NCBI GenBank assembly: GCA_002238505.1
Contig: MPMM01000002.1
Coordinates: forward strand, 434,001-498,000
Direction of reading: 5' to 3'
DNA from: SAR202 cluster bacterium bin22
GTDB lineage: Bacteria; Chloroflexota; Dehalococcoidia; Lucifugimonadales; UBA3495
DNA: 64,000 bases
Both the position numbers and the translations under genes were made by a program. Shown here piece after piece: positions 31,029 to 36,036 of this stretch (its first letter is position 1; the number at the start of each line of letters is the position of its first letter). Below the pieces are notes generated by a model. The model saw only the letters and a list, made by a program, of their open reading frames with translations, searched no databases and was not told the DNA's origin.

Positions 31029-31703
31029 CTAAAGGATACGGGCCACAGCCCGGGCAGCGGCTCCGTCGCCGTCCTTCAGCTTGATGGGCAGCGCCCACAG
31101 TTCAAACTCCCTGCCCACCAGTTGGTCCAGGTTAATCAGATTCTCGATCAGGGGGATGCCCTGGCCCAGCAGCAGGCGATGGACGGGGAAGTCGTTTATG
31201 GTTGACTGGGGACTCGGTGGGTGCTTGTCGATGGGAAAGTCCACCGACACTGCATTAACCCCATTTTCGGCCAGGTATGCGGCGCCTTCGTTGCTCAGGT
31301 ATGGACCCTGGGAATAGAAGCGGACACCGCCCGACTCTGCCGCTGCCCATCCGGTAAAGAGGACTACTATCTTGCCCTTCACCGCTTCGTGTGTTCCCCC
31401 GGCTTGCTGAATGTCGGCAACTGACAGGGGCGTAAGACCCTTAGCCACCTCCCGAAAGTCCAGCAACAGCGCGGGCCCCATGTAGCGGTCCAGGGGCATG
31501 TTCTCCACGGTAGTGCCGTCGGCATGAAAGTGATAAGGCGCGTCCACATGGGTGCCAATGTGGGTCGCCAATGTCAGCTTGGTGTTGGAACGGGCATGGG
31601 ATTCGTGGGTGTGCAGTGGTTCGGTGCAAACTCCAATCAGGCCCGGCACCGGAACTACCCGGTCACTGCCCAGGGTCAGGGTCAAATCAATCAGTTCGGT
31701 CAA
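31029..31703 (-). CDS. Cyclase-family (kynurenine formamidase-like) metal hydrolase
   Basis: A 224-residue protein of the cyclase/KynB family. The metal motif HxGTHxDxPxH is complete (H48, H52, D54, H58). A later segment TINDFPVHRLLLGQGI is also typical. Family members hydrolyse N-formylkynurenine, creatinine-like or isatin-type substrates; the real substrate is unknown. The start is TTG at 31703 with AAGGGAG upstream. Confidence 0.87.
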   Translation of the reverse strand: MTELIDLTLTLGSDRVVPVPGLIGVCTEPLHTHESHARSNTKLTLATHIGTHVDAPYHFHADGTTVENMPLDRYMGPALLLDFREVAKGLTPLSVADIQQAGGTHEAVKGKIVVLFTGWAAAESGGVRFYSQGPYLSNEGAAYLAENGVNAVSVDFPIDKHPPSPQSTINDFPVHRLLLGQGIPLIENLINLDQLVGREFELWALPIKLKDGDGAAARAVARIL

Positions 31704-31852
31704 CTTCGTGCTCCCTTGGGTAATCTGGCTTGCCGGGATTCATAATCGAGGGGCTGGGGTCGTCAAGGCAGGGGCGGATATCCAACCTGTCCTGCGCCGC
31801 CAGTGGCATCAAACCGTGCCCGTTTACTGCATGCAAGGTCTCAATGTGTTAA

Positions 31853-32608
31853 CTATACCTTCCCCTGCTTTCCCACGCATTCTGAGATGGCAGCTTCCCA
31901 CTCGTCCAGGTCAAAGAAATGAGGCCCTGCGCCCCCGTGGTATGCCACCCGGCCGTCGGGGCCAATGAGGTAAAGGCGTTCCGGAGCGGCGCCGTAGGCT
32001 TCATCAATGGCGTTGTCCATTTCCTCAATCAAAACAGGCAGCCCAATATTCAGGTCTATGCTGCAGGCCAGGGCCACTTCCTCGCGCTCATCGTAGCTCT
32101 GGTGCTGACGATACAGGACGCCCTGCCGGACGTTGCTGTCGGTCTGCCAGCCATCCGTGGGGTGGGCCTCCTGGACGTAAACCACGAAAAACTCTACCTG
32201 GTCGCTGTACTGTTGGTAAATGCCGGTCATGCGCTCAGCCTGGGCGCGGAAGGGTGGTCAAGTATAGCTGCCAAAGGCCAGCGCCACCGGCCGCTTATCC
32301 CGAAAGTCCGAAAGGCGCACCCGCTCTTCCGACCCCAATCGCTTCAGGTGGAAGTCGTCCGGAAACTCCCCGACCTTTGGCCCGGTCTCGTCTCTGGCAA
32401 GAATAGCTTCCAGCGCGGCCTCTACTTCCGCAGGCAACTCACCCTGCCATTCTTGCAGCAACTCCCTGGCGTTCACCCGGCTGCTTCCCTTGTCCGGTTC
32501 GGGGCTGTTGCCCCGGGCGTCCTTGATGGCCGCAACTACCCGCTGGACGCTCTTCCGGTCGTCCCCGTTTAGGCCGCTGATTATGCTATCGCGTTGTGAC
32601 TTGAGCAT
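31853..32608 (-). CDS. Iodothyronine-deiodinase-like selenoprotein (in-frame TGA read as selenocysteine)
   Basis: The frame from an ATG at 32608 runs through one TGA (32258-32260) to a stop at 31853, giving 251 residues with Sec at 117. Around the TGA it reads FGSYT-U-PPFRAQ, which matches the deiodinase active site FGSCT-U-PPF. The C-terminal part is thioredoxin-like (EFFVVYVQEAHPTDGW, YLIGPDGRV). A possible bacterial SECIS stem, GCGC/GCGC with a G-containing 9-base loop, begins 10 bases after the TGA. Deiodinase-like selenoproteins are known in bacteria and probably catalyse redox or dehalogenation chemistry. It lies just downstream of the sulfur operon terminator. Confidence 0.82.
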
Positions 32609-32645
32609 CATGCCCTCGCAGGTTTCCCGTCTTGCCAAGAAAATG

Positions 32646-32670
32646 GCCCTCGCTGCCTGCCAGCGAGGGC
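32646..32670 (-). terminator. Terminator closing the sulfur operon
   Basis: 10-bp perfect stem GCCCTCGCTG/CAGCGAGGGC with a 5-base loop. On the minus strand it is followed by CATTTTCTT. It lies between the molybdoenzyme gene and the selenoprotein gene. Confidence 0.7.
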
Positions 32671-32678
32671 CCTTAATC

Positions 32679-33785
32679 CTAGCTTACCTGTACTTCTACC
32701 GGGAAGACCATATTGTTGCCGTAGCCCCGGCCGTCCCACTTGTTGGGGAACTCCATGGGCTGGGTCTCGCCCAGGTTGTTGGTGGCCCGCGACATCAGGG
32801 TGTAGCGGCCCGGGCCCTTTGGCTGCCACCGGTACTGCCAGCGGAACCAGGCATAGGAACTGGCTCGGGGCGCCAGGTCTGCCAGGTCCCAGGTTTCGCC
32901 ACCGTCGCAGCTTATTTCTACCTTGACCACCTCTTCCTCGCCGGACCAGGCGGCGCCGGCCAGCGTATAACCCGCGGCCGGAATGACCTCACCGGGCGAC
33001 GGGTTGGTGATGATGGACTTTACCCTCATCTTGGTGTAGTAGGTGTAGTATTCCGGGCTGTCCGGACCGTTTTGGGTCATATACCGTTCCGTCTGGTAGA
33101 AACCCTTGAATTCATGGTCCAGGACGTGGATGCCAACCAGCCACTTCACCGAATTCATGCCGTACCAGCCGGGCACGAGCAGGCGCAGCGGGAATCCGTG
33201 ATTCAGGGGTAGCGGCTCTCCGTTCATCTCGTAGGCCAGCATAGTGTCTTGATGGAGGGCCTTGGCGATGGGCAGACTGCGTTCATAGGTAACTTCCGGG
33301 GGATCGCCTACGGTCTCGTCCGGGCCGTGGTCCGCCCCTTCAAACATTACCTCAACCGCCGAGGCCTTTACCCCCGCCTTTTCCAGGAGGTCGGCCAGGG
33401 AAATGCCAGCCCACTCCGCATTGCCCATAATGCCGTGACCCTTGATCATTTCCATTACCGAGCCGGTCCGGGTTGACCTGGCCCAATAGTCGGGCACCGG
33501 GCTGTTGCCGCAGCACTCGAACGTAACCTGGAACCTCTGCTGCGCCATGCCTAGAAGGTCGTCGAAGGAGAGGCTCAGCGGAGTCTCCACCTCGCCATCC
33601 ACCACCAGCCGGTAGGTGTTGATATCGATCTCCGGGCAGTCAGTCCAGTGGTTGCGAATGTAGAAAAGGTCGTTGGGGACTACCTCCTGCTGTAAAGCTT
33701 CCGGGGGCGCCGCCCAGGTACGCAGTCCGGCGTTGGTCGGGATCAACTGGGGTTGAACTTCGGTTCGCAGACTCCGGGTTGCCAT
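32679..33785 (-). CDS. Sulfite-oxidase-type molybdopterin oxidoreductase
   Basis: A 368-residue protein with an oxidoreductase molybdopterin-binding domain (residues 30-230) and a C-terminal Mo-co dimerisation domain (about 250-368). The Mo-ligating cysteine is C91 in FECCGNSP, where the family has CAGN. The segment HGFPLRLLVPGWYGMNSVKWL is characteristic. There is no haem b5 domain and no Tat or Sec signal, so a cytoplasmic sulfite dehydrogenase with an unknown electron acceptor is inferred. The ATG follows AGGAGG. Last gene of a four-gene operon with sulfur functions. Confidence 0.9.
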   Translation of the reverse strand: MATRSLRTEVQPQLIPTNAGLRTWAAPPEALQQEVVPNDLFYIRNHWTDCPEIDINTYRLVVDGEVETPLSLSFDDLLGMAQQRFQVTFECCGNSPVPDYWARSTRTGSVMEMIKGHGIMGNAEWAGISLADLLEKAGVKASAVEVMFEGADHGPDETVGDPPEVTYERSLPIAKALHQDTMLAYEMNGEPLPLNHGFPLRLLVPGWYGMNSVKWLVGIHVLDHEFKGFYQTERYMTQNGPDSPEYYTYYTKMRVKSIITNPSPGEVIPAAGYTLAGAAWSGEEEVVKVEISCDGGETWDLADLAPRASSYAWFRWQYRWQPKGPGRYTLMSRATNNLGETQPMEFPNKWDGRGYGNNMVFPVEVQVS

Positions 33786-34326: not shown

Positions 34327-35919
34327 TCAGCCTCCGGCGTACTTCTCCCCGAGGGCCGTCTCCCACCGCAGGTAGTTCATCATGTCGGCGTAGTTCCGGT
34401 CGGGGCCGCTGGCCACCAGGTCAGTTGGGGGACTCATCACCCCGGCAAGACCGGTCTCCACGGCCAGCCCGGCGGCCCTCCACGCGTTCATGCCGCCGGA
34501 CAAGATCGCCACGTCACTATAGCCCATGTCTCGGAGTGTTGCTGCTGCAAACACGGAATTTTGACCGTCCCGGCAGGACACAGTTACCGACGTGCTCTTG
34601 TCCGGCACCAGTCCCTCTATTTGCAGCTCCAGCCACCCCCGGGGCGCCCAGCGGGCTCCCGGAACGTGACCCTGGGCAAAATCGCCGCTGGTATCCACGA
34701 ATATGACTGCCGAACCGGGATTGGAAGCTCTCGCCTGCTCCAACTCTTGCGCTGAAATCTCCCTGGCTCCTGCTTGGGCAGCGTCCAGTCCCATAACAGG
34801 TTCTGCTGGCCCGCCGGTTTCTACGTCCAGGCCGGCTGCGGCCCAGGCGCTGACCCCACCGGAAACGGCATAAACCTCCTGGTGCCCCAGTTGCCGGTAC
34901 CAGGATGCGGTAAGAGTGGAGCGCACCTTGTCATCGCAGGCAAAGATGATGGGAGTGTTCCTGACCACGGCCACCTCATCCGACCGCTGCACTGCCTGTC
35001 CGCCTGGGAACCAGCGGAAGCCCGGAATGTGGCCTTCCCGGTATTCTTCGGTGGTTCGCACGTCCACGAAATAAACGGCCTCGGACTTCGCGCGTTCCAT
35101 CATTTCTTGCAAAGCAGGGATATCCAGGGGCCTTACGCCGTCTTCTGCCGCCAGTTGGTTGGCGTAAGCCTCCGCAGCGGCCAGTCCCTCCGCCGAGGGC
35201 TGGGGCAGGTCAACCCTGTCTGCTCCAGACTCCAGTTCATAGCCGGCCAGAACCCAGCCGGAGGTGCCGTTCTTCAGTCCCAGCACATTCTGGCGGCCCA
35301 TGCGCTGCAGAACCCGCGTGCCTATGATGCTTCGGGTGCGACCGGCGCAGTTGACGATTACCGTCGTGTCCGGGTCCAGGTCTGCGGTAATGTCCGTAAT
35401 GCGCAATGCCAGTTCGCCTCCGGGCACGCTGCGCCCGCCGGGTATGCAAAAGCGCCGGTATTCTTCCGGCGTCCTGGTATCCAGTATGACCAGCTTGTCG
35501 CCCCGCTGAATGCGCTCGTTAAGTTCTGTGGCGTCAATTTCGGGAACGTGGTGGACCACCTCCATCCTTTCGCCGAAGTCCTTGCTGGGCACGTTTACGC
35601 CCCATTCGGTGGGATAGTCCAGGCTGGCCCATCCGTTAATCCCGCGGGCCAGAACGGAAACATTGGAATAGCCCAGTCTTTCCAGAGTCATAGCTGCCAG
35701 GCCTGCCCTCCGCCCGTCGTCATCGCAGACAACCACCTGCGCCTCTCTGTGAGGTACGGAAGCGGCAATACGAAACTCCAGCTCCCGGCGGGGTATAAGG
35801 CTCGCCTCGGGGATATGGGTACTGTTGTATTCGCCCGCCTCGCGCACATCAATAAGCGCAAAGGAAGCATTGCTTTCCAGCAGTGCGGCCAGGTCTTCAG
35901 GGGAAATTTCCCGGGCCAT
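34327..35919 (-). CDS. Quadruple rhodanese-domain sulfurtransferase
   Basis: A 530-residue protein made of four consecutive rhodanese domains. All four active-loop cysteines are kept: C65 (VVVCDDDGR), C191 (VNCAGRTRS), C328 (FACDDKVRS) and C449 (VSCRDGQNS). Most multi-rhodanese proteins keep only one or two. It probably relays sulfane sulfur between carriers. The ATG at 35919 is chosen since GAGGAG is 8 bases away; the frame opens 23 codons earlier. No signal peptide is seen. It follows the thiol-dioxygenase-like gene in the operon. Confidence 0.9.
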   Translation of the reverse strand: MAREISPEDLAALLESNASFALIDVREAGEYNSTHIPEASLIPRRELEFRIAASVPHREAQVVVCDDDGRRAGLAAMTLERLGYSNVSVLARGINGWASLDYPTEWGVNVPSKDFGERMEVVHHVPEIDATELNERIQRGDKLVILDTRTPEEYRRFCIPGGRSVPGGELALRITDITADLDPDTTVIVNCAGRTRSIIGTRVLQRMGRQNVLGLKNGTSGWVLAGYELESGADRVDLPQPSAEGLAAAEAYANQLAAEDGVRPLDIPALQEMMERAKSEAVYFVDVRTTEEYREGHIPGFRWFPGGQAVQRSDEVAVVRNTPIIFACDDKVRSTLTASWYRQLGHQEVYAVSGGVSAWAAAGLDVETGGPAEPVMGLDAAQAGAREISAQELEQARASNPGSAVIFVDTSGDFAQGHVPGARWAPRGWLELQIEGLVPDKSTSVTVSCRDGQNSVFAAATLRDMGYSDVAILSGGMNAWRAAGLAVETGLAGVMSPPTDLVASGPDRNYADMMNYLRWETALGEKYAGG

Positions 35920-36036
35920 ATTCATTTCTCCTCTAGTCTGACGAATCTCTTCCCCTGCTGGTCCAACCTGGAATGACAATGTGGACAACAGGAGGCATGC
36001 TTTGCCGGCGCCCAGGATCCGGTTGCTGGGCCGGCC

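Follow-up and report, generated by a model that had tools for sequence, protein, structure and literature searches.

Does an in-frame TGA in a deiodinase-like gene of a SAR202 bacterium separate two genes or encode selenocysteine (Sec), and if it encodes Sec, what might the resulting protein do? The gene occupies positions 31853..32608 of a 64,000-nucleotide stretch of SAR202 cluster bacterium bin22 (contig MPMM01000002.1), hereafter called the window. Bacterial deiodinase-like selenoproteins have been known since 2005, when Sec and Cys forms were described from the Sargasso Sea; the portion of that report available to us suggests a redox role and leaves the function of these proteins open (PMC1088965). 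Our literature search on bacterial deiodinases found that paper, later surveys and reviews, and no paper that combines SAR202 and selenoprotein. The window gene is another member of the group described in 2005. Three details may be new relative to this literature, as far as its accessible portions extend: the SAR202-wide distribution of the family, an Ala/Pro/Ala substrate pocket, and a conserved cysteine, Cys183. The family is thereby tied to an identified marine lineage, and a residue map in which the chemistry is kept, the grip is replaced and a candidate resolving Cys is present makes its function testable.

The reading frame and its TGA codon

The gene is read from the minus strand. A sequence-only reading had given its coordinates correctly while leaving the strand unmentioned; translation shows which strand is coding, and no sensible protein was found on translating the plus strand of 31853–32608. 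Under translation table 11 the minus strand carries two open reading frames, 32638–32258 and 32230–31853, which join via a TGA as FGSYT-U-PPFRAQ, in agreement with the earlier proposal of two half-genes meeting at that codon. This single TGA (32260–32258) is the sole break in the frame 32608..31853, which starts at ATG 32608 (relatives begin likewise, with MLKxxRD) or at the preceding ATG 32611 and ends at TAG 31855–31853. With the TGA read as Sec, the product has 252 amino acids, or 251 from the second ATG, the start used by most relatives. On the evidence of the junction translation and of relatives, the TGA codon (32258..32260, minus strand) would specify Sec118 in the 252-residue numbering.

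The two halves form one protein, as had been claimed. The Pfam profile PF00837 (T4_deiodinase) crosses the junction, matching residues 86–239 with 108.2 bits against a gathering cut-off of 27 (E 5e-31). The downstream half alone matches PF00837 at E 5e-21, and no significant Pfam match was found for the upstream half alone. Residues ~2–76 (32384..32608, minus strand) make up an N-terminal helical region in which a significant family match and a hydrophobic segment are both absent. A membrane anchor was not found at the N terminus, where the highest 19-residue mean hydropathy (segments starting in residues 1–62) is 0.27; the protein is probably cytosolic. The thioredoxin-fold/deiodinase domain (residues ~77–252; 31853..32383, minus strand) contains FGSYTUPPF, Y145, E148, H150 and the DGW of an omega loop, H170, R176, C183, A209-P210-E211-R212 and A228.

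Relatives retain the TGA. We scanned contigs from one genome per species with patterns that left out the TGA column, which yielded 28 related loci, all from records titled Chloroflexi/Chloroflexota, Dehalococcoidia or SAR202. TGA occupies the Sec column in 27 of the 27 loci that reach it, and FGSYTUPPF is unchanged in these. The family is common in the SAR202/Dehalococcoidia lineage: strong matches (E below 1e-80) occur in 30 of 50 genomes of the source organism's family, with one TGA listed for each, and all 12 of those strong-match loci that were retrieved have TGA at the same column. Every one of the 40 rows scoring above 71 bits to the family profile holds Sec; these rows represent 37 distinct loci when that of the window is entered a single time. 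Below 71 bits, Sec occurs in Sec-P-P-C and other motifs, Cys occurs in some rows (L105, L109 and ordinary CxxC thioredoxins), and five distant loci have a different residue: Asp in L103, Ser in L104 and L107, Thr in L074 and Gly in L110. The scores of these five do not exceed 57 bits, whereas the window's own gene reaches 446; to judge from the substituted residue, their proteins are probably not redox-active at this column.

The sequence-only reading had expected Cys or Sec at this column and had named any other sense codon as grounds for abandoning Sec. Near relatives all have Sec, and most distant ones have Sec or Cys. The adverse codon is absent from near relatives and is seen in the five distant, low-scoring homologues only; it is confined to distant homologues because all rows above 71 bits hold Sec.

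The host genome (4.39 Mb in 58 contigs, 97% complete) encodes the machinery for Sec insertion. All four of the predicted genes selA, selB, selC and selD were found: curated profiles score selA at 542 bits (cut-off 268), selB at 348 bits (cut-off 242) and selD at 386 bits (cut-off 125), and the tRNA-Sec (selC) has the anticodon TCA. The selD gene (G000:C57:40142–41065, minus strand; locus L019) has an in-frame TGA of its own, within HCAGU, so SelD is itself a selenoprotein.

Could the TGA be a plain stop that splits the locus into separate genes or marks a pseudogene? The two table 11 frames would fit such a reading, as would the unexceptional stability of the stem in the window sequence by itself (see below). 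However, TGA is kept at 27 of 27 loci ahead of a conserved domain, the Sec machinery is complete, and the family profile runs continuously through the junction. A plain stop is almost certainly the wrong interpretation, and we ruled it out on the kept TGA and the conserved downstream domain. These genomic comparisons strongly support the reading that SelB and tRNA-Sec, directed by a SECIS element, insert Sec at the UGA.

The SECIS stem-loop

A candidate SECIS stem-loop spans 32231..32247 on the minus strand, which is positions 14–30 when the T of TGA is counted as 1. Its sequence is GCGCCCA-GGC-TGAGCGC: positions 14–20 pair with 24–30 around the loop GGC, with one C.A mismatch and an apical loop that begins with G, and the onset of the stem is 10 bases past the TGA. 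This geometry agrees with the element proposed earlier, a bacterial SECIS with a GCGC stem and a G-bearing loop 10 bases after the TGA. The folding of this single sequence does not stand out. Among shuffled sequences 191 of 200 were at least as stable, as were 31% of synonymous recodings, and an Rfam search of 32100–32400 found no family match above chance. We dropped a SECIS call from the window sequence by itself as not significant against shuffles and recodings; because the stem alone is unexceptional and Rfam gives no match, the evidence for a SECIS is comparative.

That comparison covers 28 sequences. In them 177 of 196 cells are paired, versus 97.9 ± 5.5 after synonymous recoding (maximum 117 in 2000), in a control that counts related sequences as independent and with a stem register picked after inspection of the data. 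The seven pairs are complete in 10 of the 28 sequences and six are present in 17, the window having six plus its one C.A mismatch; 27 of the 28 have G as the first base of the apical loop. Pair 15–29 changes from C-G to T-A in L038, L043, L044 and L048, with Arg becoming His on the 3' side, and in these four loci a CGT change on the opposite side accompanies the His codon (CAC). At pair 16–28, L034 has T-A for G-C, and pairing is kept although Ala and Arg both become Ser. Covariation of this kind backs a bacterial-type stem. Across 24 loci of the wider clade, the fixed seven-pair register gives from one to seven of seven pairs; these loci mostly fold in other registers, with other stems at a similar distance.

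Family, fold and active site

The deiodinase name that the gene first received is correct as a family name, with PF00837 as its profile and Dio3 and Dio2 as its nearest solved relatives, and it is not to be taken as meaning a thyroid-hormone deiodinase. A PDB sequence search returns mouse Dio3 (9e-24) and Dio2 (1e-20), then a thioredoxin at 0.03. Pfam AhpC-TSA (PF00578) also matches above its cut-off (31.1 versus 26 bits), far more weakly than PF00837. The NCBIfam model NF038285 (deiodinase_rel) gives 186.3 bits, under its curated cut-off of 250; the match is to the C-terminal half of this 347-position model, and the N-terminal half is unmatched.

A tree of 48 rows groups the window protein, other Sec-P-P-F proteins, Dio2 and Dio3 in a single branch (98/99). 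Outside that branch lie the Sec-P-P-C rows, the peroxiredoxin (Prx)-like rows and three distant Sec-P-P-F rows (L071, L075, L102). The Dio pair joins L099 with 83/71, and keeping the bacterial rows together, with the vertebrate pair as their sister instead of nested among them, gives an AU p of 0.389, which does not reject that arrangement. A position of the vertebrate enzymes within or next to a bacterial Sec clade bears on the origin of thyroid-hormone chemistry.

For an AlphaFold2 model (mean pLDDT 77, with the omega-loop region 149–164 below 50), Foldseek places Dio2 first by E-value, and VIA-align gives Z scores of 19.4 for the 1-Cys peroxiredoxin AhpE, 19.3 for Dio2 and 19.2 for Dio3. 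Because these scores are effectively equal, fold alone cannot choose between a deiodinase and a peroxiredoxin. The window protein shares its overall fold with AhpE and with ResA-type thioredoxins, but sequence identity to them is 16–22%, and the PDB sequence search gives none better than E 0.03.

Like the bacterial deiodinase-like selenoproteins of Zhang et al. 2005, to the extent that the accessible part of that paper describes them (PF00837; PMC1088965), the window protein combines a PF00837 domain, a UGA-encoded Sec and a bacterial SECIS, and thyroid hormone is not expected. Unlike them, it belongs to a SAR202/Dehalococcoidia-bound group and has Sec-P-P-F, whereas a table in the available portion of a 2026 review gives a UxxC motif for its bacterial deiodinase-like example (PMC13188914); the conserved Cys183 is present instead. 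The UxxC form is absent from the near relatives, of which 27 of 27 have UPPF, and UPPC occurs in distant rows only.

The protein resembles vertebrate Dio2 and Dio3 (PDB 9h48, 4tr3) in its Sec-P-P-F, the preceding Ser/Thr, a Tyr-Glu-His relay, an AHPxDGW omega loop and the thioredoxin fold. We mapped residues across the window protein and 22 relatives (23 proteins), using Dio3 numbering anchored at Sec170. All 23 keep Ser167, Thr169, Sec170, Pro171, Pro172, Tyr197, Glu200, His202, Gln218, His219, Arg225, Glu259 and Arg260, and 19 keep Trp207; the Sec and proton-relay residues of vertebrate deiodinases are present throughout. The omega-loop motif AHxxDGW has His150 in 23 of 23 and Trp155 in 19 of 23 (window numbering) and is missing from distant UxxC rows. 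According to the available parts of two Dio3 studies, Ser167, Thr169, Tyr197, Glu200, His202, His219 and Arg225 take part in a hydrogen-bond or proton-relay network (PMC7506546, PMC11592359). Since most distant UxxC and Prx-like rows likewise retain Tyr197, Glu200 and His202, these three are no mark of deiodination as such. Across the wider clade, the residue aligned with His219 is mostly Pro or Ala.

The substrate pocket is where the bacterial proteins differ from Dio3. Tyr257, Phe258 and Arg275 become Ala, Pro and Ala in all 23, so that neither Phe258 nor an Arg or Lys at 275 is found in any of them, and Pro at 258 is common to all 44 bacterial clade rows compared. Only Pro258 is without counterpart in Dio2 or Dio3, because Dio2 carries Ala257 and Lys275; taken singly, positions 257 and 275 vary among true deiodinases in our alignment. 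The accessible portions of work on Dio3 report that Tyr257Ala, Phe258Pro and Arg275Ala lower activity (PMC7506546) and propose Arg275 and His202 as a hormone clamp (PMC7506546, PMC11592359). Because the thyronine-gripping residues are Ala, Pro and Ala, we infer that the substrate is not an iodothyronine. Our reading of the aligned residues is that the chemistry was kept and the substrate changed. The bacterial protein also lacks the distal Cys239 of Dio3 and the hydrophobic anchor of Dio2 and Dio3, and its bacterial SECIS adjoins the UGA.

Conservation and co-occurrence mark Cys183 (codon 32063..32065, minus strand) as a candidate resolving cysteine. It is shared by all 23 proteins, as no other Cys is, and in the model it sits close to where the helix following the omega loop ends; Leu occupies this column in Dio2 and Dio3. 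The comparison took in 52 rows with Sec118, position 121 and position 183 all covered, the last being a column picked after inspection of the data. All 36 comparable Sec-P-P-F-type rows have Cys183, each with Sec118 and Phe121, and none of the 16 others does; the 36 are not independent events because the Cys183 rows are largely one clade. Five of the 16 have Cys121, five have neither Sec nor Cys at 118, and six are of other kinds, among them L105, which has Cys118 and Phe121. This distribution suggests that the resolving thiol is located at +3 or else at 183.

Proposed function and genomic surroundings

Taken as a whole, we favor, with a probability of roughly 0.6, a deiodinase-family selenoprotein that combines Sec118, resolution by Cys183 and a proton relay with a substrate other than an iodothyronine. 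Its residues point to what is likely a thioredoxin-fold Sec/Cys reductase acting on a non-thyronine electrophile, and it probably performs related selenium chemistry on another substrate than thyroid hormone. In the mechanism that we propose, the SECIS stem 10 nt past the UGA would direct SelB and tRNA-Sec to insert Sec. The Sec118 selenolate, at the start of the thioredoxin-fold helix, would then attack an electrophilic atom, O or halogen, in a small substrate, perhaps a peroxide or one of the halogenated aromatics in seawater. The conserved residues suggest that a proton would be relayed by Tyr145-Glu148-His150-His170, as in vertebrate deiodinases. Judging from co-occurrence, the Se-X species might be resolved by Cys183 to give a Se-S bond, which a thioredoxin-type reductant could open.

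The identity of the electrophile separates this proposal from two more specific ones. A Sec-dependent peroxiredoxin that reduces hydroperoxides or peroxynitrite, with deiodinase likeness reflecting ancestry only, is a serious contender at somewhat less than even odds. It would account for a fold as near AhpE as Dio, the AhpC-TSA score above cut-off and the candidate resolving Cys, and it accords with the general redox function suggested in the available part of Zhang 2005 (PMC1088965); however, the deiodinase omega loop AHxxDGW is kept here and missing from distant UxxC rows, and among solved structures only deiodinases are close to it in sequence. The retained omega loop and deiodinase-type active site, together with the branch shared with vertebrate deiodinases, would sit well with a true reductive dehalogenase of halogenated aromatics (iodo- or bromophenols, halotyrosines) from seawater or sponge hosts. 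We regard that as unlikely, given pocket residues that differ, adjoining genes among which none related to halogens was recognised, and a context that varies between lineages. Halogenated compounds of seawater or sponges are the background to this habitat idea. Its most specific form is a long shot: a SAR202-wide family that would use the vertebrate deiodinase active site plus a built-in Cys183 to remove I or Br reductively from small seawater or sponge aromatics. If true, this would make the protein a reductive dehalogenase that works in the cytosol, tolerates oxygen and resembles the ancestor of thyroid-hormone deiodination.

Gene context, at the loci compared, does not define a function. 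Upstream on the same strand are genes for a SorA-like sulfite dehydrogenase, a cupin, a four-domain rhodanese and a cysteine-dioxygenase (CDO)-like protein, which together are likely a cysteine/sulfur oxidation cluster; downstream are a cyclase/arylformamidase-like gene and an RdgB/Ham1-like gene. The rhodanese gene (34327–35988, minus strand) encodes a single protein with four rhodanese domains. That the selenoprotein serves these sulfur genes, for example by repairing or reducing a sulfur intermediate, is suggested by the CDO-like, rhodanese and SorA-like genes just upstream on the same strand, but we consider it very improbable. A terminator-like hairpin (32645..32671, minus strand; 11 pairs, 9 of them GC, with a T-rich tail) intervenes between the upstream SorA-like gene and the selenoprotein gene. 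Neighbors are also poorly conserved: among 28 related loci, some on short contigs, SorA-like, rhodanese and cupin genes each adjoin in three, CDO-like in two, cyclase in six and RdgB-like in seven, and other lineages have other neighbors. The hairpin and the unconserved neighbors weakened an operon-based sulfur function. No −35/−10 promoter match was found in 31500–33000.

In another SAR202 lineage (L037–L039, L043, L044, L046, L048 and L049), the neighboring gene is presumably of the dienelactone-hydrolase type, and at most of those loci a gene that we take to encode a thiamine-diphosphate decarboxylase subunit also adjoins. Elsewhere on the window's own contig, outside the window, lie three adjacent thioredoxin-like frames (G000:C53:22751–23861, minus strand; L052/L053). 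Each has an in-frame TGA, in the Sec-x-x-Cys motifs STUGQC, TIUPVC and TTUPVC, which suggests a small cluster of further selenoproteins.
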